From Metabacillus sp. B2-18 (GTDB taxonomy: Bacteria; Bacillota; Bacilli; Bacillales; Bacillaceae): a stretch of 64,000 bases of DNA. The notes beneath the pieces were generated by a model. The model saw nothing but the letters and a program-made list of their open reading frames with translations, made no database searches and was not told the origin of the DNA. Positions within the stretch are counted from its first letter, which is position 1, and each line of letters starts with the position of its first letter. The translations under genes and the position numbers were made by a program. Shown piece after piece: positions 11,206 to 25,644 of the stretch. The stretch spans positions 5,074,673 through 5,138,672 of the forward strand of contig NZ_CP088245.1 of assembly GCF_021117275.1 (NCBI RefSeq), given 5' to 3'.

Positions 11206-11315
11206 ACCTTTGTATTTATGGTAAAGCATATAGGCAAGACTATTCTTATCATTAACGTATAAACTTTTATGACTATTTTAGCAGGAGAAAACCCCCAGTG
11301 CGTTAATCCTTTAGT

Positions 11316-11333
11316 GTGCCGGGGGTCAGGCAC
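11316..11333. repeat. GTGCC/GGCAC hairpin with GGGGGTCAG core
   Basis: A GC-rich hairpin in AT-rich surroundings lies just after the transducer gene stop. The core GGGTCAGGCAC recalls a dispersed short repeat that I remember from Bacillus genomes. It could also act as a weak terminator, but no T run follows. Confidence 0.35.
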
Positions 11334-11338
11334 TTTAT

Positions 11339-12040
11339 TTATCTTAACTTACCTTCTATTTCTTGCAACATCTCAACATTCTTATTCATATCTATATTAA
11401 TCTCATCCATTTCACTTCTAATTGACTCTTCTTTCTCTCGAATTGAATAGATTTTTTGTTGGATTGCTGCTTGTGTTTCTTTTATATTAATGGAATCCTT
11501 CATAATAGAGGCTGCATGCTCAGACAACACACTTAATTCATGTGAGACCTTATCAATTCCATCTGCATATCCACTCACCTTAGAATTAACCTCTTCTATA
11601 GTAGAGTCAAAGGTTTTAAATGAAGTAAAGCTTTGGGTAATTTTAGATTCAATTTGCTCAAGCGTGCTCCGGATTTCAAGGGAAGCAGAATCTGTCTGAG
11701 CCGCTAATTTCCCTACCTCTTGGGCAACTATAGAAAATCCTTTTCCTGCTTCTCCCGTACGTGCAGATTCAATACTTGCATTTAAGGAAAGTATTTTCGT
11801 TTGTGACGAGACTTCCATTATGACCTGACTCATTTTAGAAACGTTTTGGGTAAGGTTTCTCAAATCATTCATAATATCTGCTGTATCTTTTACATGATTC
11901 GCTAGCTTATTATTCATTTCCGCCACGTCTCTAGTATCAGAAGAATAGTGAGTTAGTTTAACGGTGTGTTCATTTAACTTGTCTGTCATTTCATTAAAAA
12001 CATCCACAAACGCAGAGAGGGCATTAAAACTAACTGACAT
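11339..12040 (-). CDS. Chemotaxis-transducer signalling domain, 3' part of a split fusion gene
   Basis: The 233-residue frame is a soluble methyl-accepting chemotaxis signalling domain, a long antiparallel coiled coil. The kinase-contact tip is intact: [18 protein letters not shown], then VAQEVGKLA. It lacks periplasmic and membrane regions. The frame stays open upstream of its first ATG to about 12111 and reads [16 protein letters not shown], natural-looking linker sequence, up to the point where the peroxiredoxin frame of 11986-12663 is still in register. One extra A in the run of five A (plus-strand T at 12107-12111) would join both into one protein of roughly 440 residues. No ribosome binding site precedes the internal ATG. 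It should therefore be read as the C-terminal half of a redox-sensing transducer. Confidence 0.7.
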
Positions 12041-12663
12041 TTCTTTTCTACTTTGTTTATGTTCAACAAATTGCTCCCAATGCTTTTCACTGAGTATTCT
12101 GTTGAGTTTTTAATATCCCCGAACGTCTCGTTTAGGGCAGATATATAGACGGGCAACTCTGCTTTAAAATCGTAATCCTTAGTAATTTGTAGAGGCAACT
12201 GTTCAATCATACTCATAATTTCCTCTGCAGTGGGACGGTCGTTTTGATGATCACCTACATAAGAATAACGAATAACATGCTGGTCATCTAATAAGTAGGA
12301 AGCTGGTATCGCAATACGGAATGAATCCCATTTAATAGGAACAAAAACCTCATATTGCTTTATAACTTTCCGTGTTTCATCAGATAATATAGGTATTTTA
12401 ATTCCGGTAGCTTCCGTATACTGAATTATCCCCTCTATTTTTTGGCCAGCAATTCCAATTAGCTGTATTCCTTTACTTAAAAATTCATCATAATAATCTT
12501 TAAGCATTTCTAATTGTTTTCTACAACTCGGACACCAGGTCCCACGTAAAAAAATCAGATACAGTGGTTTTCCTTCAAAATCCTTTAATGAAACGAATCC
12601 ACCTTGACTTGATTCTAGCTTGAAATCTGGTGCTTTATGACCAACTGTTAAGCCCTTTGCCAC
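11986..12663 (-). CDS. Peroxiredoxin/TlpA-like domain, 5' part of a split fusion gene
   Basis: The first 180 or so residues form an AhpC/TSA-type redoxin: [11 protein letters not shown], then [10 protein letters not shown] with Cys44 and Cys47 as a CxxC pair, and a conserved [16 protein letters not shown] strand. No signal peptide is seen, so it acts in the cytoplasm. Translation starts at GTG (12663) after AAAGGATG. From about residue 186 the frame is probably wrong: the tail ending LWMFLMK is the out-of-frame reading of the transducer gene 11339-12040. A one-base change in the A run at 12107-12111 would restore a peroxiredoxin-linker-MCP fusion. Such a protein would report peroxide or thiol state to the chemotaxis kinase. 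Whether the break is real or a sequencing error cannot be told here. Confidence 0.7.
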
Positions 12664-13044
12664 AACTAAAACATCCTTTCGCTAAGGTATTCCCTAACAT
12701 TTTCAGTAAAGCGTTGTACTCTACATACTTAGTAAAAAGCTTTTCTCATTTTTTATAGTCCTCAAATTATGGATATCTTGAAAAATAATGAACAAACTCG
12801 GAGGTTTCCGTACACAGACCTCTTACTAACATATTTTTACAATCTTCTTATTTCTGATATAGTAACAGTAAAGAACTGGATGGATATTACGAGGAGTAAA
12901 TGGCTGAAGAGGAACAATTGAGTGGATGAGGATAGTGAAAAAACAATAAATCCATTGTGTCTCCTTCAGACATAGAAATGACAGTAAACAAGAAACTTTT
13001 TTGTTAGCTTTAGTAGAGCACATGACAAGACAAAGAGTATACGG
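12664..13044. other. Intergenic stretch, no gene supported
   Basis: Contains the upstream region of the split peroxiredoxin-transducer gene and a hairpin at about 12800-12825 (GAGGT...ACCTC) that may end the Crp-type operon. A near-palindrome TGTTAG/CTTAGC at 12680-12699 has six or seven bases between half-sites, not four, so it is not counted with the island operators. Confidence 0.4.
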
Positions 13045-13728
13045 TTATCCCTCTTCCACCCCATATAACTCCTTAGTCAAGGCTGTATTAATTTTTAAAG
13101 GCTTCCTCATAATTACTTCTTCCTTCTCAAGCTCCCCTAAAAATAGGCTGACCGTTTCTCTAGATGAGCCAATCATACTCGCGATATCATGTTGGGTAAT
13201 TTTAACTTCGACCGTTTGCCAACTCCCACTCCTTATGCCAAATCGATTACTTAGCTGCATGAGAAGAAGTACAATTCGATACTTTACATCTTTATAGGCA
13301 ATACTTTCGGTAATCTGATACATCTCTTTAAGCTTTGAAGTCAAAATGGTAATGAGCTTTATGGCAATATCTGGGTTTTGTCGGATAAAATCTTCAAATC
13401 TGTCCTTTGATAGAGTGCATACAAACGAATCAACCATTGTTTCAGCATAAATTTCAGATTCTGTTAACGAAAAACTGGATGTTTCTCCAAACACATTTCC
13501 TTCACTTAAAAGATCAACCGTGAATTCTTTTCCGGTCGAAGACACTTTATATAGTCGAACCTGACCTTTTTTCAAGAAAAATAAAGACCTCATTTGTTGA
13601 GTCGGACTTAGAATAATGGTTCCCTTCTTAATAGGTGCTGTTAATGTCACTTCATCTATTTTTCTTAATTCTTCTTCCGGAAGCTCATCAAGTAAATTAA
13701 TCTGTGAAAGTAACATAAGTTTATCCAT
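13045..13728 (-). CDS. Crp/Fnr-family transcription regulator
   Basis: The 227-residue protein has a cyclic-nucleotide-binding-type beta roll (about 10-120, with GNVFGETSSF), a dimerisation helix (about 120-145) and a C-terminal helix-turn-helix (about 176-200) whose recognition helix reads SSRETVSLFLGEL. The Arg-Glu pair matches Crp, but the third contact residue, Arg in Crp, is Leu here. This fits a half-site beginning TGT but not the full TGTGA. There is only one cysteine (Cys104) and no Fnr-type cluster, so the signal is unknown; Cys104 or a ligand are candidates. It overlaps the glutaredoxin-like gene upstream by eight bases. It is the natural candidate to bind the TGTWAG-N4-CTWACA palindromes of the island, including one in its own promoter. 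Confidence 0.85.
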   Translation of the reverse strand: MDKLMLLSQINLLDELPEEELRKIDEVTLTAPIKKGTIILSPTQQMRSLFFLKKGQVRLYKVSSTGKEFTVDLLSEGNVFGETSSFSLTESEIYAETMVDSFVCTLSKDRFEDFIRQNPDIAIKLITILTSKLKEMYQITESIAYKDVKYRIVLLLMQLSNRFGIRSGSWQTVEVKITQHDIASMIGSSRETVSLFLGELEKEEVIMRKPLKINTALTKELYGVEEG

Positions 13729-13942
13729 GATTACACCTCTCTCTATATCGTTTCAAAATCATCTCAAAATCTAACCATTCATCTTCCACCTCTAACATAG
13801 GTAGGCCATTATCAAGTGTAAGGGCTCTCCCTGTATCTATATTATCAAAAATACTTATCACTTTCACATCAAGGTCTAGCTTCTTAAATAGCTTGATGAC
13901 TTCATCACATTTGCAACAGCTTGGCAAAGTATATAAAATCAT
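13721..13942 (-). CDS. Glutaredoxin-like small redox protein
   Basis: A 73-residue thioredoxin-fold protein begins ILYTLPSCCKCDE. Cys9 and Cys12 form the CxxC pair, with an extra Cys10, and GLPMLEVEDEWLDF gives the cis-proline strand. Length and layout fit NrdH/glutaredoxin-like proteins. It is the first gene of an operon with the Crp/Fnr-type regulator, which it overlaps. The pairing suggests that it either feeds a redox signal to the regulator or is simply co-controlled. The promoter side carries the palindrome at 14046-14061 and a TAAAAT -10-like hexamer placed correctly for minus-strand transcription. Confidence 0.75.
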   Translation of the reverse strand: MILYTLPSCCKCDEVIKLFKKLDLDVKVISIFDNIDTGRALTLDNGLPMLEVEDEWLDFEMILKRYRERCNHG

Positions 13943-14045
13943 ATCCTCCTCACTCTTCTTTCCTTCATAGGTTGTCTTAGCTACTGGATGTATATTTACT
14001 TCTTACTTATCATTTTTTATTTTACATGTTTTCTTTAAAAGTAAA

Positions 14046-14061
14046 TGTAAGGAAGCTTACA
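14046..14061. promoter_or_regulatory. Operator of the island regulon, divergent promoter
   Basis: The perfect palindrome TGTAAGGAAGCTTACA lies between the glutaredoxin/regulator operon and the divergent peroxiredoxin gene. Centred at 14053.5, it has GATAAT (14083-14088) 32 bp away on the plus strand and TAAAAT (14019-14024) 32 bp away on the minus strand. One site could thus activate both promoters. Confidence 0.75.
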
Positions 14062-14118
14062 TAAATTATAAAAATAAGAGGAGATAATAAACATATCCAT
14101 TAAAGAGGAGATAAAAAC

Positions 14119-14758
14119 ATGACGTTAAATGCTGAATTAGATGCTATATCTCGTGAATTACTACACCTAACTCCAGAAAGGACACCATGAACCACGATAA
14201 AAGGTTACCACTACCGGCCCTTTTTCTAACTCTTCATATAGATTTATGTCTTCACCAAGATGGTTTTTCAAAGTGAAATCTTTGGCCTTCTCACCTTCTG
14301 CGACTCCTGTGACTAATCCTGATTCTTGCGCCTCCTTAATAGAACGCTCAAAAGCCTGCATGGCCTCAAATAATCGACAATTAAAAGCATACCAAGAGAT
14401 TTTACCCGAAGTTCATGGGCTAGGAGCACAGCTATTAGCTATCAGTCCACAAACTCCTGACAATACCTTATCCACGCAAGAAAAAAACGAACTGGATTTC
14501 CAAGTGTTAAGTGATCCGAGAGGGATAGTGTCCGCAAAGTTTAATGTGCTTTTTGACGTTCCTGACTACTTAAAGAACGCTTATGAGAAGATTGGATTAG
14601 ATTTAGAGTCCTTTAACGGAAAAGCAAAATGGATTTTGCCCGTACCAGCTACATTCATGATAGATGAAACAGGAGAAGTCAGGTTTAAGCATGTCAACCC
14701 TAACTTTATGTCTCGATTAGAACCAAATGATATATTACGCGCTTTAAGAAAATTATAA
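14119..14758 (+). pseudogene. Peroxiredoxin-like gene disrupted by an internal 190-bp inversion
   Basis: Plus-strand translation starts at ATG 14119 after AGAGGAG and gives MTLNAELDAISRELLHLTPE, then meets a stop at 14188. The next 63 residues of a peroxiredoxin, EAMQAFERS to YRGSWCPF, are encoded on the opposite strand between about 14367 and 14179. The rest (NRQLKAYQEILPEV... to the end at 14758) is again on the plus strand. Turning the middle segment round restores a protein close to its paralogues at 17090 and 22910, with the CPxC active site at the joint. The ends share only the five bases CAGAA/TTCTG, and a few bases are changed at the right joint. As it stands the gene cannot make an active product. 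Confidence 0.8.
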
Positions 14759-14762
14759 TTAG

Positions 14763-14790
14763 AGCAGCCCTCTTTTGGGCTGCTTTTTTT
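14763..14790 (+). terminator. Terminator of the disrupted peroxiredoxin gene
   Basis: AGCAGCCC/GGGCTGCT hairpin followed by seven T residues, four bases after the stop codon. Confidence 0.85.
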
Positions 14791-14805
14791 AGTAGCGTCT
14801 GCCTT

Positions 14806-15447
14806 CTATGTTTGTTCAATATTACGCTCTTCTGCCGAGTGGTTTATCTGGTTCATAGAATCTTCTCTGATTAAAGACCAAAGAGAGTCAAAGGCCGAAT
14901 CGGGAAACTCTTGCTTCAACTCTTCAAGTGATCCACAGCTCTTATAAAGTCCATTTAGCCTAACGGCAAGGGTTGAGTCAGTTAGTGACTCCTTTCCCTC
15001 TTGAAGCTCCTGCCACTTTTTAAAAATAGGTTTCCATCTCTGAAGAAAATACTTCTGATGACGAATTTCCGCCTCGTAAAAGGAATCAAGAAACTCTACA
15101 TAGGTATAGCAATCATCATGTAACCGCTTCATTTCCTCTACTTTTTGAAGCATATTAGTCTGCTGTTCCTCGTTGTGATAAAACAGGACAGAACGATACT
15201 TAATCGAGCGTGGAGGTCTCATCGTATTATGCTGTTGAAAAAATTGGTTCAGTATTTGATCTAAACTCAATACATCTGCATCATATAGTATTTCTAAAGC
15301 CTCCGTATAGTCTAAGGTGTTTCTGGATGTGGGCTGACCTTCTGTTCCCCCTGCATACCCGACTCTTGTTTTGATTACACCTGTATGATAACCAAAGCGT
15401 GCTTCCGGTCCCCAGAAACAGCCCATTCCTAACGTGACTCTCTCCAA
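14806..15447 (-). CDS. MsrA-type methionine sulfoxide reductase, stand-alone
   Basis: A 213-residue protein with the MsrA active-site motif GMGCFWGPEARF near the start, RVGYAGG, the FFQQHNTMRPP segment and HQKYFLQRW. MsrA reduces methionine-S-sulfoxide in proteins using thioredoxin. The TTG at 15447 is chosen because AGGGGTG lies at good distance; a longer frame would run through the upstream terminator. The C-terminal 70 residues are an extension not seen in the MsrAB protein at 23681. The sequence diverges from usual MsrA in several places, so substrate range may differ. Confidence 0.75.
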   Translation of the reverse strand: MERVTLGMGCFWGPEARFGYHTGVIKTRVGYAGGTEGQPTSRNTLDYTEALEILYDADVLSLDQILNQFFQQHNTMRPPRSIKYRSVLFYHNEEQQTNMLQKVEEMKRLHDDCYTYVEFLDSFYEAEIRHQKYFLQRWKPIFKKWQELQEGKESLTDSTLAVRLNGLYKSCGSLEELKQEFPDSAFDSLWSLIREDSMNQINHSAEERNIEQT

Positions 15448-15460
15448 TCTAATCACCCCT

Positions 15461-15503
15461 AAAAAAATACAAACCAAAGCAATCTTACATGCAAGATGCT
15501 TGG
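15461..15503 (-). terminator. Terminator after the Fe-S-type gene
   Basis: Minus-strand hairpin CCAAGCATCTT/AAGATTGCTTTGG followed by a T run, between 15516 and the MsrA-type gene. Confidence 0.7.
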
Positions 15504-15515
15504 CTTGTATCCTTC

Positions 15516-15833
15516 TTATTTTTTATAGTCTAATTTCATATAGGCCGTATAGATTTGGCTATTGCTTTTTAATATAAATGTAGACTTACTTGGATTATAA
15601 TCCACGACTAAATCTTCATCAAATAAGTGATCTGACTTATGACCTAATAACACAGGCATAAAGTTTGTTGAAAGAAATTGCTCCTTTATCACCGGATCCA
15701 GTTCCATCAATCCTACAAATGTCACCCAATCTGCTCCAATAGAGCAGCCTCCTAGACTCGGATTTAGCTCATACGCGATTGCTGGTTCTTGGGACAGTCT
15801 CTCAACTGCTCTTTCCGAAAATTGTACATTCAT
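15516..15833 (-). CDS. HesB/YqkB-like iron-sulfur biosynthesis domain protein
   Basis: The 105-residue protein resembles the HesB-like Fe-S family found in Bacillus as YqkB. It has the central segment GGCSIGADWVTFVG, a hydrophobic core and a C-terminal strand region. Only one cysteine (in GGCS) is present, so it lacks the CxC pair of true A-type scaffold proteins. Its role may be regulatory or structural and not cluster transfer. ATG follows AGGGGGC at normal spacing. It stands alone with its own terminator. Confidence 0.6.
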   Translation of the reverse strand: MNVQFSERAVERLSQEPAIAYELNPSLGGCSIGADWVTFVGLMELDPVIKEQFLSTNFMPVLLGHKSDHLFDEDLVVDYNPSKSTFILKSNSQIYTAYMKLDYKK

Positions 15834-16003
15834 TTGAATGCCCCCTTTATATATTTAGCACCCGCTAAGGTTACAGTCTTCCAAATAGGCTTTAAGATGA
15901 ATATCTTGTAAATTCTCTATCAAAATTAATATCTTTCCGTTTTCTTCTGTAAAACTTTGATTCAGTTCTAACTTACCCTGTTTTTACATAAAGATCTTTA
16001 AGA

Positions 16004-16519
16004 TTATTCCTGCAAATCAGGATAGCGCCTCTCCTGGGTTTCATGACGCGTTCCGCGGCTAGCCTTCAGAGACTCGCCCAAGGCAAACACAGAAGCGCCC
16101 AGCAAGACGAGATCCTTCAAAAGAAATTGACCTGGAACTACAGAAAGCGCGGGGAATCCGAGGCTCGACTCAAAGACCCCCGGCGTAGAGATCATGAAAC
16201 TCAGTGTCGTCAGAAATAGAATGCAGGAAAGAAACGCTCCAACAGCTGACAGCTTCGGAGAGACAAAACGACTGAGAATGAGTAGGCCAACTAATAATTC
16301 TAATATTCCCAATAGAGAAGAAAACGTTTGAATTGAAAAATAGTTGTAAAGCCATCCAAGTACTGGACTATTGCTTACAAAGGGGGCAATTCCCTTCGCT
16401 TCGTAGACCGTGAATTTCATCGCGCCAATCCAAATATAAACGATGGCCAGTGCAATAAATAAACTCTTTGTTCCGATGATCTCAATTTTTTTACCGAAAG
16501 CTTCAAATAACGTGAACAT
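16004..16519 (-). CDS. DUF417 (RclC/YkgB-like) membrane protein
   Basis: A 171-residue protein with four probable membrane helices matches DUF417. The conserved parts are IWIGAMKFTVYEAKGIAPFV, NSPVLGWLY and the C-terminal PGQFLLKDLVLLGAS. In enterobacteria the family member RclC belongs to a reactive-chlorine defence operon, which suits the redox setting. ATG 16519 is placed eight bases after GGAGGAGG. The second half of the gene is visibly richer in GC (for example around 16015-16190) than neighbouring genes, which points to recent transfer from another source. Confidence 0.75.
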   Translation of the reverse strand: MFTLFEAFGKKIEIIGTKSLFIALAIVYIWIGAMKFTVYEAKGIAPFVSNSPVLGWLYNYFSIQTFSSLLGILELLVGLLILSRFVSPKLSAVGAFLSCILFLTTLSFMISTPGVFESSLGFPALSVVPGQFLLKDLVLLGASVFALGESLKASRGTRHETQERRYPDLQE

Positions 16520-16746
16520 GAACATTTCCTCCTCCGCCATTAGCGATAGTAAGTTTTTATTTACCAAAAAGCTTTTAAAACTGTTTCTCCATTTTTCCTG
16601 ATGCTAATTCGGGCATTTCTTCTGAATGAATTCCTTTATCCCCGTTTGATGCAGTTAGTAGCTCTATAATTAACTAGCATCATTTACGGATGGTGTCAGG
16701 AGGTACTACACTGAAAAAATGGTTACTTCTCAATGATTTTTTAGGT

Positions 16747-17061
16747 TTAGATATGATTATTTAATGCTTCCTTAATTGCTTCCTTAAATTTCAAACCAAC
16801 CAAAGTATCTACAACTTTGCCATCTTTCATAACTAGTAGAGTCGGAATACTCATGATACCAAATTTGTTGGCTGTTTCTTGGTTTTGATCGACATCAATC
16901 TTCACAATTTTAACTTGATTTCCCATATCCTGATCAAGCTCTTCTAATACCTGTGCTATCATTTTACAAGGTCCACACCATGTAGCAAAAAAGTCAGCTA
17001 ACACCAATCCACTAGTAGTTTCTTTTGAAAACGTTTGATCCGTCACATTTAATACTGCCAT
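16747..17061 (-). CDS. trxA: Thioredoxin
   Basis: A 104-residue thioredoxin with the classical active site FFATWCGPCKM, VDVDQNQETANKFGI and the cis-proline segment SIPTLLVMKDGK. The ATG at 17061 is chosen because AAAGGAG lies nine bases upstream; a TTG at 17070 would touch that site. It lies 28 bp after a peroxiredoxin-like gene (17090-17749), so the two form an operon in which thioredoxin can regenerate the peroxidase. The operon is preceded by the island operator at 17839. A housekeeping trxA is expected elsewhere in the chromosome, so this is probably a second copy. Confidence 0.9.
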   Translation of the reverse strand: MAVLNVTDQTFSKETTSGLVLADFFATWCGPCKMIAQVLEELDQDMGNQVKIVKIDVDQNQETANKFGIMSIPTLLVMKDGKVVDTLVGLKFKEAIKEALNNHI

Positions 17062-17089
17062 AAATATCAATCTCCTTTGAAATTGTAAT

Positions 17090-17749
17090 TTATTTTAAGT
17101 TGTTAAGAACTTCAATCGCTTTCGTTGGCTCTAAACGGGAGGTATAGTCAGGGTTTACAAATGCAAGTTGAATGATTCCTTCCTTGTCAATGATATACGT
17201 AGCTGGTACAGGCAGCATGGCCACATCAGCATCATTATATCTAATGAGGTCTAACCCAAGAGCTCCCTTTAACGTCTCAGCTAAGTATTCAGGTACCTCA
17301 TAAGCTACTTTGTAAGCAGAAGAAACATGACTATTTGTATCGCTTAAGACATAGAAAGGTAGGTCATGCTTTTCTCTTGAGCTCAACGAATTATCTGGCG
17401 ATTCTGGACTTACCGCAATCAATTGAGCGTCTTGTTCTTTAATGGTATCCATATGCTTTTTATAGGCTTGAAGCTCAAGGTTACAAAATGGGCACCATCC
17501 TCCACGATAAAACGTAAGAATGACCGGACCCTTTGCTACCTCCTCAGAAAGAGTTACTTCCTTACCTGTTGCGTCTTTTAGAGTAAAGTTGGGAGCCTTT
17601 GAGCCTACCACTAACCCACTCACTTGTTCCTTTTCAATTAAATCCGATACAGACTTTGCTAAATTATCTAATACCTCTTGTGGTGCTTGCAGCTTAAATT
17701 GTTCTACAACACCTTGTAATTGTTCGTATAACGGAACCTGTTCATTCAT
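17090..17749 (-). CDS. Peroxiredoxin-like protein (AhpC/TSA family)
   Basis: A 219-residue redoxin with VGSKAPNFTLKD, the active site FYRGGWCPFC, AVSPESPDNSLS and PVPATYIIDKEG. It belongs to the same subfamily as the proteins at 22910 and the broken copy at 14119. These probably reduce peroxides with electrons from thioredoxin, which is encoded directly downstream. The ATG at 17749 follows GGGAGG; an upstream ATG at 17770 would include that site in the coding part. Operator 17839-17854 and TATACT at 17812-17817 stand upstream. Confidence 0.85.
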   Translation of the reverse strand: MNEQVPLYEQLQGVVEQFKLQAPQEVLDNLAKSVSDLIEKEQVSGLVVGSKAPNFTLKDATGKEVTLSEEVAKGPVILTFYRGGWCPFCNLELQAYKKHMDTIKEQDAQLIAVSPESPDNSLSSREKHDLPFYVLSDTNSHVSSAYKVAYEVPEYLAETLKGALGLDLIRYNDADVAMLPVPATYIIDKEGIIQLAFVNPDYTSRLEPTKAIEVLNNLK

Positions 17750-17838
17750 TAGAATTCTCCTCCCATTCATAAAATTAATTTGGTTACTGACAACTTGTTT
17801 TTACATTTATGAGTATAAGGTCTTTCTTACTTTAATAA

Positions 17839-17854
17839 TGTTAGATAGCTTACA
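17839..17854 (-). promoter_or_regulatory. Operator of the island regulon, peroxiredoxin-trxA promoter
   Basis: TGTTAGATAGCTTACA, centre 17846.5, with minus-strand TATACT at 17812-17817, 32 bp from centre to centre. The operator would sit at about -41.5. Confidence 0.75.
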
Positions 17855-17923
17855 TTTACAGTGCTCACAGTCCTTTTTATTTTGGGACTACCCTGAAAAT
17901 AAGGTGTGATATACGTTCAGGAA

Positions 17924-17992
17924 TATTCGCTTTCCGCGGGGCTAACTGCGCGCCTTCTCGACACATACTCCGGCGGTGTCTCACCTTAACCG
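17924..17992. repeat. GC-rich palindromic repeat remnant
   Basis: TTCGCTTTCCGCGGGG followed by GC-rich sequence and a GGCGGTGTCTCACC end matches the look of a dispersed palindromic element known from many Bacillus genomes. The base composition differs sharply from the flanks. No coding content. Confidence 0.5.
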
Positions 17993-18103
17993 AAACGATC
18001 ATGCTTGCAAAAAGCAAAGATTCCATAAATTGCAACCTCCACTTCATTCAAGCGTTCAATCCATATGTTCCTTCGACATCACCACTATTTTTTTAAAAAT
18101 ATA

Positions 18104-18137
18104 AAAGAAACATTTCCTTTAAGAAGAAATGTTTCTT
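18104..18137 (-). terminator. Terminator of trxB
   Basis: AAGAAACATTTC/GAAATGTTTCTT hairpin followed on the minus strand by T-rich sequence, just after the trxB stop. Confidence 0.8.
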
Positions 18138-18144
18138 ATCTACT

Positions 18145-19161
<1,017 letters not shown>

Positions 19162-19180
19162 TCACTTTTTTAAATAAAAA

Positions 19181-19196
19181 TGTTAGATAGCTAACA
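19181..19196 (-). promoter_or_regulatory. Operator of the island regulon, trxB promoter
   Basis: The perfect palindrome TGTTAGATAGCTAACA, centre 19188.5, with TATACT on the minus strand at 19154-19159, 32 bp away. This is the clearest example of the set. Confidence 0.8.
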
Positions 19197-19263
19197 GTCT
19201 TAGGATTACTTCTATCAACGAATAAACGATTATTCCACTATACAAAAGAGTAATATAAACAAG

Positions 19264-20100
19264 CTAAAATACAAACATCTTACTCGCCCATTGTTTAAAT
19301 GGCATTCGTTTCTTCCAACTAACACTGAGTAAGAACCAAGAAATAGAAAGTAAAAGGATCAGGATGAAAATAGCCCTTAACTCTATAAATAAAAAGCTAG
19401 CAAAAATTAACCCTAGTAGGTAAACGTGTGTCTGAAAGTAGGTTCGTTCAAAACCCTTTATCACCGGCAGCATAGGTATCCTAGCTAGTTTATATTCCTC
19501 ATATCGATGAATGGCAATGGCATAAAAATGGGGCATTTGCCATAAAACCATGATTAAAAAAAGACCAATAATAGATAGATGAAGTTCACCTGACGAAATT
19601 GCCGACCAGCCAATTAGAGGAGTTATTGCACCAGACAAGCTACCAATTTCCGTATTATAAATGGTCCTCCGTTTAGACCATATCGTATATGGTACTAAAT
19701 ATAAAAACCAGCCTAGCCAACCATATAAAGCAGCAAGCGGCTCCGCTACATATAGCAAACCGACTCCAGCAATAAGCAAGATGCTTCCTGCCATAAAAGC
19801 GGTGAGGTCACTAATGGCACCTGTAATCGTTGGTCTGTAGCGTGTCCTTTCCATTAGAAAATCAATATCTCGATCATAAAGATTATTAAATACTCCGGCC
19901 GAGCTTATGACAAAAGCAGATCCGATAATGGTTAGCACCATAACTAACCCATTTTCAAGAAGGGTTACCTCTATCGAAATACATGCTAAACACATTCCAG
20001 CAATGACAGCTAAAACATTAGATTTGACAATCCCTACCTTTACAAGCTGGAATGCAATTGAACATTTTTCAGCTGTCCCACTTTTATTTTTATTCCCCAT
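19264..20100 (-). CDS. ctaB: Protoheme IX farnesyltransferase, truncated by amber codon
   Basis: A polytopic membrane protein of the UbiA family that converts heme B to heme O. It has the prenyl-diphosphate motif NNLYDRDIDFLMERTRYRP and the later YNTEIGSLSGAITPLIGW and WQMPHFYAIAIHRYEEYK segments. The frame ends with a TAG after KMFVF. Continuing past it gives 26 more codons (LVYITLLYSGIIVYSLIEV...) before TAA, making about 305 residues, the usual length, and completing the last membrane helix. A serine or leucine codon has probably mutated to TAG. The loss is small, so activity may remain. The operator at 20175 lies upstream. Confidence 0.85.
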   Translation of the reverse strand: MGNKNKSGTAEKCSIAFQLVKVGIVKSNVLAVIAGMCLACISIEVTLLENGLVMVLTIIGSAFVISSAGVFNNLYDRDIDFLMERTRYRPTITGAISDLTAFMAGSILLIAGVGLLYVAEPLAALYGWLGWFLYLVPYTIWSKRRTIYNTEIGSLSGAITPLIGWSAISSGELHLSIIGLFLIMVLWQMPHFYAIAIHRYEEYKLARIPMLPVIKGFERTYFQTHVYLLGLIFASFLFIELRAIFILILLLSISWFLLSVSWKKRMPFKQWASKMFVF

Positions 20101-20174
20101 TTTTCTCACTCTTCTCTTTATTTCTTACATTCTTTTTAAACCCTTTCATTATAAGTCATTTTTTTCTATTGAAA

Positions 20175-20190
20175 AGTAAGCTAACTCACA
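20175..20190 (-). promoter_or_regulatory. Operator of the island regulon, ctaB promoter (weaker match)
   Basis: AGTAAGCTAACTCACA, centre 20182.5. It has two mismatches to the symmetric form, but a perfect TATAAT lies on the minus strand at 20148-20153, exactly 32 bp away. Confidence 0.65.
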
Positions 20191-20247
20191 GTTTTTATGT
20201 TATAACTTTGTTTGGTTTAAACTTGTAAGAAGCTCTTATTTCAGAAA

Positions 20248-20263
20248 TGTAAGCAAGATTACA
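20248..20263 (+). promoter_or_regulatory. Operator of the island regulon, thioredoxin-like gene promoter
   Basis: TGTAAGCAAGATTACA, centre 20255.5, with TATGAT at 20286-20291, 33 bp away on the plus strand. Confidence 0.7.
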
Positions 20264-20335
20264 GAATATAAAGTGGATAATCGCCTATGATAAGTCATGT
20301 AAGTTCACTAAATACTTATGGGAAGGAAGATAGAT

Positions 20336-20659
20336 ATGGAAAAAAGGATTACAAATAAAGCGGCATTTAATCAGATTATTAACTCAGAGAAGCCAGTCGT
20401 AGTTAAGTTCGACACAAACTGGTGTCCAGACTGCAGACGCATGGATGCATTTATGGGAGAGGTATTAGAGGATTTGAATCCTTTTCCACTTTATGAAATG
20501 GATCGAGATGAATTCCAGGATACCTCATCTACGTATGAAGTGATGGGAATTCCAAGCCTACTCGTTTTTAAGAATGGCGAGAAGATTGGTCACCTACACA
20601 GTGCTCATGCCAAAACACCTGAAAGTGTAACCGAGTTCTTAGCAACTTATTTTAAGTAA
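20336..20659 (+). CDS. Thioredoxin-like protein with WCPDC site
   Basis: A 107-residue thioredoxin fold with FDTNWCPDCRRM as active site and MGIPSLLVFKNGE as cis-proline strand. The Pro-Asp between the cysteines differs from the CGPC of thioredoxin and suggests a changed redox potential or partner. ATG 20336 follows GGAAGGAAG. It is one of the few plus-strand genes of the island and has its own operator and terminator. Confidence 0.8.
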   Translation: MEKRITNKAAFNQIINSEKPVVVKFDTNWCPDCRRMDAFMGEVLEDLNPFPLYEMDRDEFQDTSSTYEVMGIPSLLVFKNGEKIGHLHSAHAKTPESVTEFLATYFK

Positions 20660-20670
20660 ACATAAACAAT

Positions 20671-20699
20671 GGGATCATGCTTTAGCTTGATCCCTTTTT
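20671..20699 (+). terminator. Terminator of the thioredoxin-like gene
   Basis: GGGATCA/TGATCCC hairpin followed by TTTTT. Confidence 0.8.
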
Positions 20700-20704
20700 C
20701 AATG

Positions 20705-20914
20705 TCATACCTCATTGGTTACTTGATGATCGTTTTTACTGCTATCCAAATAGAGATTTAGTAATACATCGAGCTCTTGGCTTAAATGGATGATCAAAGG
20801 TGATTGTAAATCTTTATTCTCTTTAAATACTTGTAGTATCTCTTGTCTTCGTTCCTCAATCATGTACCTTAAATAATAAATTGGGATAACCGGATTACAG
20901 GACTCTTTCTTCAT
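20705..20914 (-). CDS. Spo0E-like aspartyl-phosphate phosphatase
   Basis: A 69-residue helical-hairpin protein carries the family signature SQELDVLLNLY near residues 45-55. Spo0E-type proteins dephosphorylate Spo0A or other response regulators and so delay sporulation. ATG follows GAGGTG. The palindrome at 20985 in its promoter places it in the same regulon as the redox genes, which links redox state to the sporulation decision. The target protein cannot be told from sequence. Confidence 0.8.
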   Translation of the reverse strand: MKKESCNPVIPIYYLRYMIEERRQEILQVFKENKDLQSPLIIHLSQELDVLLNLYLDSSKNDHQVTNEV

Positions 20915-20984
20915 GACAGATTCACCTCATTTTTGTTAAAACCACCTCTTATGGAATACTTTACCTCACCTCTCTTACGATTAA

Positions 20985-21000
20985 TGTAAGCCACTTCACA
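20985..21000 (-). promoter_or_regulatory. Operator of the island regulon, Spo0E-like promoter
   Basis: TGTAAGCCACTTCACA, centre 20992.5. A weak -10, TAAAGT at 20958-20963, is 32 bp away on the minus strand. Confidence 0.6.
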
Positions 21001-21030
21001 TTAATGCAGATACCTATAGAAATATGGCAA

Positions 21031-21055
21031 AAAAAAAGAGCAGGATGAACTGCTC
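21031..21055 (-). terminator. Terminator of the GGDEF/EAL operon
   Basis: GAGCAGTTCATCCTGCTC hairpin followed by eight T residues on the minus strand. Confidence 0.85.
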
Positions 21056-21065
21056 CACATTAAAT

Positions 21066-21995
21066 CTATTGGACCTTTGTAATTTTAGCCCCACCCGTTC
21101 TTTTCGACTGATAGAGAAGTTTATCGGCCCCTTCTAGCAGCTCATGCATCTTCATTTGATGGGAATGAACCAGTCCAATCGAAAGACTCAAATCTGGCAA
21201 TATTTCTGCAGCCATCTTCTCAAAAGCATTTAATAAATTGTTTGCACAAACTTCACATTCTTGTTTGTAGGGGCTATTCAGAAGAACTCCGAATTCGTCT
21301 CCTCCAAATCTAAAGCCGTAGGCATCTTTTGGTATATACCTCAAAATCATTTCACCTAGCCCTTTCAGCACTTCATCACCAATGTGATGGCCCAACCGGT
21401 CATTTACCTGTTTAAAATGGTCAATATCAAACATTAAGAATGTAAAAGGTTCGGTTACAAGGGTAGGATTAGAAACTAAACGGTTCCAGAGCACTCTATT
21501 GTATAATCCAGTAAGGGAATCCTTTATATTAGACAGCTCCAGCTCTATAGCATAGGATAAAAAGGACGAAACCTTCTCTAATACGGTAATGGTCTTTTCG
21601 CTAAACGCTTTGACATTATGACTTAACGAACAAATAGCACCTAAAATAGATCCATCCTTGTGGTAAATAGGCACTCCGGCATATGATCTTATATCCATTT
21701 TGTATGCATGAGAGATATTTAATGTGAGAATTCCAAATTGTGTTTCCGTAAGGCTATCATGAATCAATACCGGTTTTTGATTCAACGAGATTAACTGACA
21801 AAAGGTGTCATCTGTTTTATAAAGGCAGCTTTCTGTTAGGACATCTTCTTTTAGGAATAACGTTTGAATAATCTTCGTTTGTTCACCGTCCATGAAGCTC
21901 ATGTAGAAGCTATAATCTCCTACTAGTTCCTGTGCAATCTCTAGAATATCATTTAGAACGGTCGAAAAGGTTTGGACATGTGATAAATTAATCAT
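21066..21995 (-). CDS. GAF-GGDEF diguanylate cyclase
   Basis: The 309-residue protein has an N-terminal GAF sensor (about 1-150) and a C-terminal cyclase domain with the intact catalytic motif RFGGDEF and DIDHFKQVNDRLGH. It should make cyclic di-GMP from two GTP. No membrane segment is seen, so the signal is internal; the GAF domain has several cysteines but no proven ligand. ATG 21995 follows AAAGG. It is 21 bp after the EAL gene upstream, so the two opposing activities are made from one transcript. Confidence 0.9.
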   Translation of the reverse strand: MINLSHVQTFSTVLNDILEIAQELVGDYSFYMSFMDGEQTKIIQTLFLKEDVLTESCLYKTDDTFCQLISLNQKPVLIHDSLTETQFGILTLNISHAYKMDIRSYAGVPIYHKDGSILGAICSLSHNVKAFSEKTITVLEKVSSFLSYAIELELSNIKDSLTGLYNRVLWNRLVSNPTLVTEPFTFLMFDIDHFKQVNDRLGHHIGDEVLKGLGEMILRYIPKDAYGFRFGGDEFGVLLNSPYKQECEVCANNLLNAFEKMAAEILPDLSLSIGLVHSHQMKMHELLEGADKLLYQSKRTGGAKITKVQ

Positions 21996-22016
21996 GTTTA
22001 TCATCCTTTACATCAT

Positions 22017-22787
22017 CTATTCTTCCACTTTGACTAGCTTCGGTCTCATAAAATAATAGCCTTGAAAAAAAGGGACACCATGATTTTTAAAGAATAATAC
22101 CTCTTCTTCTGTTTCGACTCCTTCTGCGATAATGCTTACATCCTGTTGAAGCCAATAGTCAATTAAGGCTTTCATCATGTGCTGACGATAGCTATCATGA
22201 CCAATATCCTTAACCAAATCACGGTCAATTTTTACAAAATCAGGCTCTACCATGGCAAGGGTATGTAGACCGGAATAACCTTTTCCTATATCATCAACAG
22301 CAATTCTCATTCCAAGCTCCCTTAGCTCTTTCATCTTTCGAATCACTTCTTCTTTGGTATAATTGCCAAGTCCTTCTCGCTCAGACAGCTCTAGCACTAT
22401 TTGAAATTTGCTTGTTTTTATATGTGGGAGCATGTCTTGCCAATCATCTGTAAATAGAGTGGAAAGATGAATATTAACAAATACGAAGCTTGGTTGACTC
22501 GACTTTTTCAATAACCTCTCAACTCCAGCTCTTAATACAAAAGTATCCACTTTGTGTATCTGCCCGTGTCCGGCAGCAAAAGAGTAAAATTGATCAGGTG
22601 AAGAAAATGTAGATTGGGCAGAAGGTCGATTCAATAGCTCCGTTGCTATTTCCTTTTTGTTTCGAATGTCAAAGATAGGCTGTTCAAACGTGTTAATATC
22701 ACCTGTCTTTAAAGTCATATCAATTTCTTTCATCAAAGTTGCGCAATGGATTTCAATTACTTTGTTTTCTTTATCCTTAAAAAGCAT
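22017..22787 (-). CDS. EAL-domain cyclic di-GMP phosphodiesterase
   Basis: A 256-residue stand-alone EAL domain. The signature is TELLNR, not the usual EAL, with the catalytic glutamate kept; VNIHLS, LELSERE, DDIGKGYSGL, VKIDRDLV and AEGVET follow in order. The metal ligands seem present, so activity is likely but not certain. ATG 22787 follows GAGAGGAG. It is the first gene of a two-gene operon with the diguanylate cyclase. Confidence 0.85.
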   Translation of the reverse strand: MLFKDKENKVIEIHCATLMKEIDMTLKTGDINTFEQPIFDIRNKKEIATELLNRPSAQSTFSSPDQFYSFAAGHGQIHKVDTFVLRAGVERLLKKSSQPSFVFVNIHLSTLFTDDWQDMLPHIKTSKFQIVLELSEREGLGNYTKEEVIRKMKELRELGMRIAVDDIGKGYSGLHTLAMVEPDFVKIDRDLVKDIGHDSYRQHMMKALIDYWLQQDVSIIAEGVETEEEVLFFKNHGVPFFQGYYFMRPKLVKVEE

Positions 22788-22909
22788 TTCATCACTCCTC
22801 TCATACTGGTTTCTTTTTGTTAAGAAAGGATTACCTTTAAGATCACCCATTCCTCATAAAATGAATCTTCAATTAATGGGGTTTTAGCTCCTGTTAGTAC
22901 GAGATAAAG

Positions 22910-23545
22910 TTAGTTCGGTAGATATTCTAACACCTCAGATGGTTCTGCTCTTTTCCGATAATCAGTATCTACATAAGCATAGATGATCTTCGCCTGTTGA
23001 CTAATAACAAATGTAGCCGCAAGTGGCAGCTCCCAGCTATCCTCTCCATTATAGCTTGGAAGTTCCAGTGCTAATTTTTGGTATAACTCTATTAAGACTT
23101 TTTGCATTTTGAAGGTTAGGTTGTATTCGTTTGATACCTGATTCCCTTTATCACTTAACAAATGAAATTGCAGCTCATTTTTCTCCTTCATGGTTAAAGA
23201 AGAATCTGGAGTTTGCGGGCTTACTGCCAGTATCTGTGCACCTCTTTGCTTTATTTGAGGAAGCAGCTCCTGGTAAGCCTTGAGTTCAAGGTTACAATAT
23301 GGACACCAAGCTCCGCGATAAAAAGTTAATATAACAGGGCCCTTCTTAAGTTCATCATATAGAGTGACAGCTTCCCCATTTGCACTTGGCAATGTAAAGT
23401 TCGGTGCTGTTTGCCCGGCAATTAGACCTTTAGGCGCATGCTTTTCTAAATCCTCAGCGGCATCCCTAAAAATATCTTGTATTTCCTGAGGACGATTATT
23501 CACAAACTGCTTAATTTTAGCTTCAAGTTGCTCTCGTAAATTCAT
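22910..23545 (-). CDS. Peroxiredoxin-like protein (AhpC/TSA family), second intact copy
   Basis: A 211-residue paralogue of 17090-17749 with AGQTAPNFTLPS, the site FYRGAWCPYC, AVSPQTPDSSLT and PLAATFVISQQ. ATG 23545 is preceded by GGGAGG. It lies about 120 bp before the EAL gene without a clear terminator between, so some co-transcription is possible. The operator is at 23606-23621, with TACAAT 32 bp away. Confidence 0.85.
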   Translation of the reverse strand: MNLREQLEAKIKQFVNNRPQEIQDIFRDAAEDLEKHAPKGLIAGQTAPNFTLPSANGEAVTLYDELKKGPVILTFYRGAWCPYCNLELKAYQELLPQIKQRGAQILAVSPQTPDSSLTMKEKNELQFHLLSDKGNQVSNEYNLTFKMQKVLIELYQKLALELPSYNGEDSWELPLAATFVISQQAKIIYAYVDTDYRKRAEPSEVLEYLPN

Positions 23546-23605
23546 ACTATATCCTCCCATACTTTCTTATTGTCATTCATTGTATCTAAAAAGAGGAAAA
23601 GATAC

Positions 23606-23621
23606 TGTTACCCAGCTAACG
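23606..23621 (-). promoter_or_regulatory. Operator of the island regulon, second peroxiredoxin promoter
   Basis: TGTTACCCAGCTAACG, centre 23613.5. TACAAT lies on the minus strand at 23579-23584, 32 bp away. Confidence 0.65.
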
Positions 23622-23641
23622 TTTTTTATATATTCAGAAAA

Positions 23642-23675
23642 AAACGCCCCAGAGGCATTTAAATCCAGGGCGTTT
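23642..23675 (-). terminator. Terminator of msrAB
   Basis: AAACGCCC/GGGCGTTT hairpin followed by T residues on the minus strand. Confidence 0.85.
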
Positions 23676-23680
23676 CCTAT

Positions 23681-24634
23681 CTATTCAAATAAGCGAAGAT
23701 ATTCACTATAGCCCTCTTCTTCCAGCTTATCTTTGGGAATGAATTTAAGGGCAGCAGAGTTAATGCAATATCGAAGTCCACCTTTATCACGCGGACCATC
23801 ATCAAAGACATGTCCTAAATGAGAATCTGCCGAGGTGCTTCTGACTTCAATGCGTCTCATCCCATGTGACGTATCTAGTTTTTCGAGAACTTCTTGATGC
23901 TTTATAGGCTTGGTAAAGCTTGGCCACCCACAACCAGAATCAAATTTATCAAGAGAGCTAAATAGTGGCTCTCCAGAAATAATGTCTACATAGATTCCTT
24001 CCTCCTTATGATCCCAAAATTCATTTTGGAAGGGAGGCTCCGTACCGCTTTCTTGTGTCACACGATGCTGAATAGGCGTAAGCTTCTTAATGTTTACTGA
24101 GTGGTGTTTCTTCCAATTTTCACGGATAAATCCTGCTCGGCCTGAGCCTTCTTTATAACGGTTATAATGTAAGGAATTCTTTTTATAATAACCTTGATGA
24201 TATTCTTCAGCAGGATAAAACACGGCTGCCTCTTTTATTTCTGTAACAATTGGTTTTGTAAACCTTTTGCTGTCCTCTAGCTTCTTTTTAGATTCTTCAG
24301 CGAGACGCTTTTGTTCCTCAGTATGATAAAAAATGGCCGTTTTGTAAGACTCTCCTCGATCCCCAAACTGACCTTGAGCATCAGTTGGATCTATTTGCTG
24401 CCAAAATAGCTCTAACAGCTTTTCGTATGGAAACACGTTCGGATCATACGTAATTTGAACAGCCTCGTAATGACCCGTTTTATTCGAACACACTTCATTG
24501 TAGGTTGGGTTCTCTTTATGTCCACCTGTATAGCCCGACACAACTTTTATAATACCTGGCAACTCATCAAAGGGCTGAACCATACACCAAAAACATCCAC
24601 CAGCAAATGTAGCTAACTCATATTGTGTTGACAT
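23681..24634 (-). CDS. msrAB: Fused methionine sulfoxide reductase MsrAB
   Basis: The 317-residue protein joins MsrA ([14 protein letters not shown] at the start, [11 protein letters not shown]) to MsrB (from about 185, with [10 protein letters not shown] and a C-terminal [11 protein letters not shown] catalytic cysteine). It repairs both stereoisomers of methionine sulfoxide in proteins, using thioredoxin. No export signal is seen. ATG follows AGGAGG. It stands downstream of the OsmC gene but is separated by a terminator; no copy of the island operator is evident directly in front of it. Confidence 0.92.
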
Positions 24635-24685
24635 AGTCCTACCTCCTATAGATGTTAATTTATCCAGATTACCAATACAGTGCAG

Positions 24686-24715
24686 AAAAAACCCCTCAGT
24701 CTAAGGGGTTCTTTT
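24686..24715 (-). terminator. Terminator of the OsmC-family gene
   Basis: AACCCCTTAG/CTGAGGGGTT hairpin followed by TTTTT on the minus strand. Confidence 0.85.
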
Positions 24716-24728
24716 CTATCAGTTTTTT

Positions 24729-25169
24729 TTATTTTCTTTTCCAAGTAGATTGAATCTGAATAAAGTTCGTATCCTTTAAGATGTTGAATACTGGACATCT
24801 TGAATCTGTTTTCTCTTTTAGCTCTTGAATTCTTTCATCAGACTCGTCAGTATCAACAAGTGCTTCAATCTTAAGCGTCTGGAAGTATTGCTTGACAGAA
24901 GGGTCACCCATTAATCCTTTTGGATCTAAAGCTCCTTCAATTTTGAAGTCAATTCCGTTGAGGTTAAACTTCATTTCTTTTGCTACAATGTTTGCAATGT
25001 AATTTTCACATCCTGCAAGTGATCCAAGAAGTGTGTTTAAAGGGTTTGCACCCTTATCGTTTCCACCTAAATTCTTTGGCTCGTCTACATAAAATGTATG
25101 AGCTCCGGCCTTAACCTCTGTAGTTACCTGTTGTGATGTTGATTCAATACCAAATTTAAGTAATGCCAT
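24729..25169 (-). CDS. OsmC/Ohr-family peroxidase-like protein
   Basis: A 146-residue OsmC-type protein with two family cysteines, in GSLAGCENYIAN (about residue 54) and SRCPVFN (about 123). These proteins are thiol peroxidases that prefer organic hydroperoxides or polysulfides. The first cysteine context lies between OsmC and YhfA-like groups, so substrate is uncertain. ATG follows GGAGG. The operator at 25241-25256 is 72 bp upstream. Confidence 0.8.
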   Translation of the reverse strand: MALLKFGIESTSQQVTTEVKAGAHTFYVDEPKNLGGNDKGANPLNTLLGSLAGCENYIANIVAKEMKFNLNGIDFKIEGALDPKGLMGDPSVKQYFQTLKIEALVDTDESDERIQELKEKTDSRCPVFNILKDTNFIQIQSTWKRK

Positions 25170-25240
25170 GATTAATTCCTCCTAAAATGTTTTTTCATTT
25201 ACTTACACTTTGGAGTATAACCAGAATCCTTTTTAAAAAA

Positions 25241-25256
25241 TGTTAGATGCCTTACA
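25241..25256 (-). promoter_or_regulatory. Operator of the island regulon, OsmC gene promoter
   Basis: TGTTAGATGCCTTACA, centre 25248.5, with TATACT on the minus strand at 25214-25219, 32 bp away. Confidence 0.75.
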
Positions 25257-25507
25257 TATTTCATGCATTTTTTAAAAATGCTTCGCGCCGTGTAAAAGAT
25301 ACAAGCATATTCTCAAAAGAAAGAGCAAAAATAATTACATGGATAAAGCAAGCTTTACAAGATGAAAACCTTATTTTATACGAAGGTTGGGGTTCAAAAA
25401 AGAAAAGGTATGACCATAATACAAGAAGATTATGTTTAGTTACATCTGATGGCTATTTTATTTTTATTCCCTTGCGGTGCTATTCCTTGCCCCTATCCAT
25501 TTTGTAA
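25257..25507 (+). pseudogene. Possible gene remnant beside rlmH
   Basis: An open frame on the plus strand reads SKERAKIITWIKQALQDENL and continues with ILYEGWG and TSDGYFIF, which looks like real protein sequence. It has no ribosome binding site, and the only ATG lies inside the operator. It may be the tail of a gene cut off at the integration site. Weak evidence. Confidence 0.25.
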
Positions 25508-25617
25508 TGATATGTTTTTATTTTTTCAAAAGGTATTGCGATATTAACTATTTTTACCCTTTTCTGTACTCCTCAACTGGTTAAGTTTACTTATTTCAAT
25601 TCTCAACTCTACTTTAT

Positions 25618-25644
25618 TGTTTACCATCACTTGTGATACGGTTC
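25618..25644. repeat. Primary att site at the end of rlmH
   Basis: The 27 bp are identical to 11179-11205 and cover the last five codons and stop of rlmH plus bases after it. Staphylococcal SCC elements insert at the same codons of the same gene. Confidence 0.85.

Follow-up and report, generated by a model that had tools for sequence, protein, structure and literature searches.

We find that a 64,000-nucleotide stretch of Metabacillus sp. B2-18 DNA (the window; positions 5,074,673 to 5,138,672 of a 5.14-Mb contig, in a genome of 5.47 Mb) holds eight copies of a palindrome, each 32 or 33 bp from a -10-like hexamer, together with the gene of a Crp/Fnr-family protein at 13045 (coordinates are those of the window unless stated otherwise). 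Very probably, this protein is a class II activator of a thiol redox repair regulon that it controls from eight sites of one horizontally acquired island. It is predicted to bind TGTWAK-N4-MTWACA centred 32–33 bp from the -10 element, near -41.5, and would there recruit RNA polymerase at all eight island sites, activating among others its own operon, which consists of a glutaredoxin-like gene and the regulator gene. The regulator operon, the operators (matches refer to TGTWAG-N4-CTWACA) and their -10 elements are as follows.

13045–13728, minus strand: Crp/Fnr-family regulator, 227 amino acids, proposed activator (Pfam domains above cut-off; homologues)
13721–13942, minus strand: glutaredoxin-like CxxC protein, 73 amino acids, gene overlapping the regulator gene (Pfam Glutaredoxin, 23.1 bits against a cut-off of 22.9)
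14046–14061, divergent: operator 1, ahead of the glutaredoxin-like and regulator genes (minus strand) and of a peroxiredoxin gene (plus strand), exact match
14019–14024, minus strand: -10 element TAAAAT of the regulator operon, 32 bp from operator 1
14083–14088, plus strand: -10 element GATAAT toward the broken peroxiredoxin gene, 32 bp from operator 1
14119–14758, plus strand: peroxiredoxin gene, interrupted by an internal inversion at about 14176–14361 (about 180 bp)
17839–17854, minus strand: operator 2, ahead of peroxiredoxin (17090–17770) and thioredoxin (16747–17070) genes, exact (Pfam AhpC-TSA, Thioredoxin)
17812–17817, minus strand: -10 element TATACT, 32 bp from operator 2
19181–19196, minus strand: operator 3, ahead of thioredoxin reductase (18145–19119), exact (TIGR01292 above cut-off)
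19154–19159, minus strand: -10 element TATACT, 32 bp from operator 3
20175–20190, minus strand: operator 4, weaker, ahead of heme O synthase (19264–20109), two mismatches (TIGR01473 above cut-off)
20148–20153, minus strand: -10 element TATAAT, 32 bp from operator 4
20248–20263, plus strand: operator 5, ahead of a thioredoxin-like gene (20318–20659), one mismatch (Pfam Thioredoxin)
20286–20291, plus strand: -10 element TATGAT, 33 bp from operator 5
20985–21000, minus strand: operator 6, weakest, ahead of a Spo0E-like gene (20705–20914), two mismatches, matrix score 15.5 (Pfam SpoOE-like)
20958–20963, minus strand: -10 element TAAAGT (four of six), 32 bp from operator 6
23606–23621, minus strand: operator 7, ahead of a peroxiredoxin gene (22910–23560), two mismatches, matrix score 17.4 (Pfam AhpC-TSA)
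23579–23584, minus strand: -10 element TACAAT, 32 bp from operator 7
25241–25256, minus strand: operator 8, ahead of an OsmC-family gene (24729–25169), exact (Pfam OsmC)
25214–25219, minus strand: -10 element TATACT, 32 bp from operator 8

All eight palindromes named in the original prediction, which had been made from the DNA letters, are present, but the consensus given there was overstated: a pattern scan of the window finds TGTWAG-N4-CTWACA exactly only at 14046, 17839, 19181 and 25241 (four of the eight), with one mismatch at 20248 and with two at 20175, 20985 and 23606. The sites of relatives favour the wider form TGTWAK-N4-MTWACA. Measured against dinucleotide shuffles, the window contains five exact palindromes where 0.01 are expected, and 25 with at most two mismatches where 11.9 are expected. 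That each palindrome precedes a redox, Spo0E-like, heme O synthase or regulator gene was likewise borne out by Pfam and TIGR matches, except that the peroxiredoxin gene after 14046 is broken, residues 27–88 of Prx3 matching the minus strand and residues 90–214 the plus strand of 14119–14758. The controlled genes would be those for the glutaredoxin-like protein, peroxiredoxins, thioredoxins, thioredoxin reductase and OsmC; next to them lie genes for methionine sulfoxide reductases. One of the latter, an MsrA-MsrB fusion (23681–24634), follows the OsmC gene, with a sequence between the two that by eye resembles a terminator (24690–24715).

The distance to the -10 element is nearly invariant. As had been claimed, a -10-like hexamer lies 32 or 33 bp from every palindrome (8 of 8); it matches TATAAT in at least five of six positions near seven of them, 20985 reaching only four. 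The distance is 32 bp, with 33 bp for 20248 only, and 14046 has a hexamer on both sides, each 32 bp away. When 14046 is counted twice and distances of 14–59 bp are scanned for the nine oriented sites, a hexamer with at least four of six matches stands at 32 bp in eight and one with at least five in seven, the ninth site being 20248; any other distance gives at most four and one of the nine, respectively. The base rate at 32–33 bp is 0.15 for at least four matches at any position and 0.23 in AT-rich sequence, and 0.025 and 0.039 for at least five. The spacing agrees with a class II layout, for which the site is predicted to lie near -41.5; E. coli Crp, too, acts at class II promoters.

The same arrangement recurs in relatives. 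In 51 loci around homologues of the regulator, 137 oriented exact matches to TGTWAK-N4-MTWACA were reduced to 122 by removing those at least 70% alike, and of the 122, 32 have a -10 element (at least five of six) at 32 bp and 13 at 33 bp, against an average of 2.0 and never more than 5 at each other distance. With up to one mismatch and without de-duplication, the 43 wider-group loci gave 108 matches in 41 loci at 32–33 bp, against 26–33 matches in 17–24 loci for five control spacings. Seven shuffled control palindromes gave 0–8 oriented sites each per set and one in total at 32–33 bp; this control included the loci L069 and L011 and the window, while L069, a repeat of L011, was omitted from the site tables of the relatives, and the neighbour count took L069 and omitted L011.

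The regulator itself is patchily distributed. Homologues 85–93% identical occur in Cytobacillus oceanisediminis, a Bacillus sp., Fictibacillus nanhaiensis and B. timonensis, and homologues 54–56% identical in Planococcus and Paenisporosarcina; no site was found in the locus of a Chloroflexi homologue (28% identity). In the family, 17 of 80 genomes match the regulator at E <= 1e-20, with a near-identical copy only in its own genome and next-best homologues of 53, 46 and 44% identity (L020–L022). The patchy distribution of the near-identical form argues for horizontal transfer. In the order, 58 of 397 genomes, its own included, have a homologue at E <= 1e-40, and the number of sites follows the regulator: the strict pattern has 114 matches in these 58 genomes (41 with at least one) against 150 in the 339 others (113 with at least one), so promoters of this pattern are about fourfold more frequent per genome with the regulator (Mann–Whitney p ~2e-13, Fisher p ~1.4e-7, both optimistic since the genomes share ancestry). 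The same palindrome at 32–33 bp, with similar genes behind it, and a site number that tracks the regulator thus support the class II Crp/Fnr reading. An internal stop interrupts the regulator gene in L070 and L088.

In its own genome the motif is concentrated in the island. The suspicion that it might be equally frequent elsewhere fails both for exact palindromes and when a -10 element is required, and is justified for loose palindromes with two mismatches. The exact palindrome has six copies in the 5.47 Mb, four in the island and the other two in coding sequence, namely:

54061–54076: exact palindrome, unlisted in the original prediction, inside a ParB gene (Pfam), with no hexamer of at least four of six matches at 32–33 bp
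genome position 1,947,457: exact palindrome within a FHIPEP (FlhA) gene; the gene that follows directly encodes an SRP54-type GTPase domain and by its position is presumably flhF

The copy at 54061 probably stands outside the regulon; it was rejected as a member for its place within the ParB gene and for the missing -10. The copy at 1,947,457 was rejected for one reason, the lack of a plausible gene read from it: on the minus strand there are only short frames antisense to flhA. A genome-wide search for TGTWAK-N4-MTWACA, a gap of N21–22 and TANNNT returned six matches, five of them in the island, and the backward control two. We also trained a weight matrix on 101 unique sites from relatives, which had been picked by the palindrome and the 32–33 bp rule, so that the matrix tests the window sites and the background but not the spacing independently. 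The eight sites total 15.5–28.2 on the strand of their gene, and no score in the remainder of the window reaches 10. The background was 400 kb of the same genome in 20 stretches, 19 evenly spaced and one picked to include the 1,947,457 palindrome; its best score is 22.0, at that palindrome, and its second best 11.2.

The genes behind the sites in relatives form a limited set. Of 140 sites in the relatives' table 102 were used, and those dropped were the six window sites, sites with no start of an open reading frame up to 140 bp away and sites with a -10 whose first letter is not T; one representative of each downstream gene group was annotated. Eleven recurring groups account for 97 of the 102 sites, with five singletons. 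The first group comprises the glutaredoxin-like gene (22 sites) and the regulator gene itself (2), followed by OsmC (17), thioredoxin-like proteins (12), a YnjB-type binding protein (12; model PRK11622, which we take to be YnjB), a membrane protein of about 144 amino acids (11; e.g. L073:12284–12718) whose representative has no Pfam or NCBIfam match, TrxB, peroxiredoxin and VTT-domain proteins (4 each), and DUF2553, CDP-alcohol phosphatidyltransferase and DsrE (3 each). In 42 of 51 loci the regulator has a glutaredoxin-like gene no more than 600 bp away, as judged with a profile built from 19 proteins of those same loci, and this suggests a thiol signal. A site ahead of the regulator's operon is present in the window and in several relatives. 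The gene set of the window appears to be a local edition of a broader regulon.

In the wider relative L088 (10433–16987), genes for a YnjB-type binding protein, two permeases, an ATPase, a VTT-domain protein and a disulfide reductase lie beside the regulator and together form a putative operon with an operator at its head. A remnant of DUF2553 is found in the window at 15858–15983 (residues 38–79 of a relative's protein, 62% identity). In L008, L010 and L012 DUF2553 comes first after the operator, followed by an Fe-S-biosynthesis-like gene and msrA, which is why that operator seems to have been lost in the window. Same-strand genes with EAL and GAF-GGDEF domains (21066–22850, Pfam) lie downstream of the peroxiredoxin gene that follows 23606, and a cyclic-di-GMP arm of the regulon is possible. 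The Exiguobacterium plasmid pE52 carries a regulator of 50% identity surrounded by genes for OsmC, peroxiredoxin, thioredoxin and glutaredoxin, and this locus (L067:3745–12211) also has the ergothioneine biosynthesis genes egtB and egtD. A Cytobacillus solani plasmid regulator (40% identity) adjoins a DoxX gene with no redox cassette around it, and a further survey gave 178 plasmid records with a relative of the regulator, nearly all of about 28–34% identity (124 Enterococcus, 25 Listeria, 17 Ligilactobacillus).

The protein encoded at 13045 belongs to the Crp/Fnr superfamily, with PF00027 cNMP_binding at 58.3 bits and PF13545 HTH_Crp_2 at 44.8 bits, both above cut-off, and its predicted operator has the palindromic TGTNA-N6-TNACA form of that superfamily. 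Among Crp/Fnr structures its AlphaFold model (pLDDT 84.7, pTM 0.58) found matches with E-values as low as 6e-17, but the TM-scores were only about 0.4–0.5. It scores far below the NCBIfam equivalog cut-offs for NtcA (85.6 bits against 244.95), Crp (78.7 against 266) and LdrP (32.1 against 300) and below that of the Fnr subfamily, and identity with NtcA, E. coli-type Crp or SdrP/LdrP was rejected on the equivalog scores. It is the only match to itself in its genome at E <= 1e-20. In Crp, Arg180 and Glu181 contact DNA and Arg185 contacts the G:C pair of TGTGA. The original prediction noted that the recognition helix differs from Crp at one contact residue, and this holds across 92 full-length homologues: R190 is kept in 92 and E191 in 90, and position 195, equivalent to R185, has A in 46 homologues, L in 26 and R in only 2. 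The equivalents of Arg180 and Glu181 thus seem to be kept and the Arg185 contact lost, which, going by these Crp contacts, would agree with the W in TGTWA.

The same alignment bears on the signal. Crp proteins of the cyclic AMP (cAMP) type keep a phosphate-binding Arg, and at the corresponding columns 90–95 Arg is absent from the commonest residues, which disfavours cAMP sensing. FNR needs four cysteines for its [4Fe-4S] cluster, and sensing of that type is disfavoured by there being one cysteine, Cys104; both signals therefore look unlikely. Cys104, the sole cysteine of the window protein, is found in 89 of the 92 homologues and is placed by the predicted model in the last strand before the helices. 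Because this cysteine is conserved and the regulator has a glutaredoxin-like partner gene, a thiol-type trigger appears the likeliest.

The regulon appears to sit in an island inserted at rlmH. Elements of the staphylococcal cassette chromosome (SCC) are defined by their place of insertion, the 3′ end of rlmH, by direct repeats on either side and by ccr recombinases, and comparable features are found here.

11179–11205: left direct repeat, a copy of the rlmH 3′ end that bounds the redox cassette, perfect 27-bp repeat of 25618–25644
25618–25644: right direct repeat, rlmH 3′ end, att-like, perfect 27-bp repeat of 11179–11205
2836–4368, minus strand: large serine recombinase, CcrB/CcrC-related, in the neighbouring unit of the composite island (NCBIfam CcrB 316 and CcrC 250 bits; cut-off 900)

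A third, diverged copy of the repeat lies left of the cassette at 2831, and the neighbouring unit has two Ccr-like serine recombinase genes below equivalog cut-offs. In stretches of 18–20 kb from four same-genus genomes, similarity to the window starts at 25629 or 25631 and extends through rlmH, and left of these positions no blastn match above 60 bp was found in the four stretches; since similarity begins only there, we take this point as the insertion boundary. The cassette would have inserted at the 3′ end of rlmH, and downstream of that site the genome differs from all four relatives compared. One of the four also has Ccr-like genes beside rlmH. We therefore read 2831–25644 as a putative composite SCC-like island and 11179–25644 as its redox cassette. 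It shares with SCC elements the rlmH 3′ end as insertion site, the direct repeats and the presence of Ccr-like recombinases next door, whereas those elements are staphylococcal, the host here is a Metabacillus, as the names of YycH relatives also suggest, and the recombinase (316 and 250 bits against 900) is a relative of ccrA/B/C rather than a member. A search of nine loci with island-type regulators found no copy of the rlmH repeat at up to three mismatches. Pfam matches at the cassette's left end (11339–12663) show an AhpC/TSA gene and, overlapping it, an open frame for a chemoreceptor signalling domain; no operator was found there.

Several observations weigh against the proposed regulon. 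Three of the eight operators deviate at two positions, and palindromes with at most two mismatches are not enriched in the genome (1130 per strand against 1171 in the backward control); because such palindromes alone are not enriched, the weak sites are credible only via their position, their -10 element and its spacing. The palindrome inside flhA at 1,947,457 outscores 20175, 20985 and 23606 (22.0, minus strand). Some genes of the cassette lack their own site, namely msrA (14806), the Fe-S-biosynthesis-like gene (15516), DUF417 (16004) and the AhpC/TSA gene (11986). Among the wider relatives, sites also precede transport and lipid genes of uncertain redox role, and two of 43 loci lack a site at up to one mismatch. 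The homologues of L020–L022 have no site within about 1.5 kb; when 20-kb stretches were taken around 40 regulator places, mostly chosen by score, that of L020 showed one site, ahead of a peroxiredoxin-like gene. In the order, 17 of the 58 positive genomes have no strict site (15 with homologues 38–51% identical and two with 54%), meaning either drift of the motif or a mixed group, and at least one match is present in 113 of 339 genomes without the regulator. The lack of enrichment of two-mismatch palindromes could be taken to mean that the pattern is due to chance or to a composition shared by AT-rich promoters, but exact sites and spacing are far above the controls in the genome and in relatives, and we reject this explanation as next to impossible. 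It is improbable that another factor binds the palindromes or that the regulator represses there. TGTWA-N6-TWACA is close to the sites of other Crp/Fnr proteins and also to those of Rex, and the matches in regulator-negative genomes would suit another factor; yet the fixed placement at 32–33 bp fits activation, and the number of sites follows a regulator that has no second match in the genome at E <= 1e-20.

Other alternatives keep the regulator and its sites and concern the signal. Reactive sulfur species such as persulfide or polysulfide might be sensed, with the island reusing an older sulfur-stress regulon. OsmC, DsrE and DoxX are linked to sulfur chemistry, and in wider relatives sites precede DsrE-like, DoxX, OsmC and glutaredoxin-like genes as well as the YnjB-type transporter operon with its VTT-domain and pyridine-nucleotide-disulfide reductase genes. 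The several peroxiredoxin and methionine sulfoxide reductase genes of the island, however, fit oxidants such as hypochlorite, as does the DUF417 protein, which resembles RclC (101.7 bits, below the cut-off of 275), and we regard a sulfur signal as a somewhat unlikely possibility. A little more doubtful is a regulator that is effector-free and active once made, its own synthesis through the autoregulatory site setting the output. The site at 14046 and the lack of Arg among the commonest residues at columns 90–95 would be in keeping with this, and SdrP, probably a class II activator under oxidative stress, offers a precedent, since a reference title there speaks of no required allosteric effector (PMC8465061). 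Against it, Cys104 and the usual glutaredoxin-like neighbour suggest a sensing step. In the thiol-responsive activator that we favour, binding, activation and its direction, and thiol-type sensing are what we infer, whereas the operators, their spacing, enrichment and conservation and the autoregulatory position can be read off the DNA.

The regulator resembles several known proteins without our claiming membership in any of the NtcA, SdrP or FixK2 groups. Its best NCBIfam and PDB sequence match is NtcA of cyanobacteria, which differs in its nitrogen regulon and its 2-oxoglutarate signal, and several sites here have TGTT rather than TGTA. SdrP (TTHA1359) of Thermus thermophilus is distant in sequence; 2zcw, presumably the SdrP structure, matched the regulator at E 5.7e-11, and we know of no glutaredoxin-like partner for SdrP. 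E. coli Crp has the same domain architecture and half-site spacing, whereas the 13045 protein lacks an R185 equivalent and the cAMP-type Arg. NtcA promoters are described as combining GTAN8TAC near -41.5 with a TAN3T -10 box in a class II arrangement (PMC3898017), and to that extent the island promoters share their layout, with a predicted site at -41.5 and a TAN3T -10. SdrP is described as a Crp/Fnr protein that probably activates at class II promoters, chiefly under oxidative stress, with the operator TGTRA-N6-TYACA, and the E. coli Crp site is TGTGA-N6-TCACA (PMC8465061); on that description SdrP and the 13045 operator share half-site spacing, with position 4 being G/A in SdrP and A/T here. 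In FixK2 of Bradyrhizobium, a Crp/Fnr protein, a single cysteine is reported to be an oxidation switch, and oxidation turns the protein off (PMC9104804); going by this, a single cysteine is common to both proteins, at a different place than Cys104. In the open-licence literature we recognised no description of the regulator or its motif, which is weak evidence of absence as the slash in 'Crp/Fnr' may escape a search, and a passage search of PMC12616503 found no mention of Crp or Fnr. In conclusion, an island-borne activator appears to turn on a whole cluster for the repair of oxidized thiols and methionine together, and distant relatives of this activator seem to run a similar gene set across the Bacillus order.

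Oxidant defence in Bacillales is usually ascribed to factors such as PerR, OhrR and Spx. To these, a Crp/Fnr activator that governs a thiol-redox regulon through an operator of its own, and has homologues in 58 of 397 genomes of the order, would add a layer of control, and the operator definition is directly testable. The rlmH island and the 50%-identical regulator on the Exiguobacterium plasmid suggest how a regulated stress-repair module travels. We tentatively speculate that this Bacillales group of Crp/Fnr proteins is a thiol-switch sensor in which oxidation or persulfidation of Cys104 turns the regulon on and the glutaredoxin-like protein of the same operon resets it, the circuit being packaged in SCC-like and plasmid cassettes. 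If this is true, such cassettes would give their recipient a complete, self-regulated redox-repair system.

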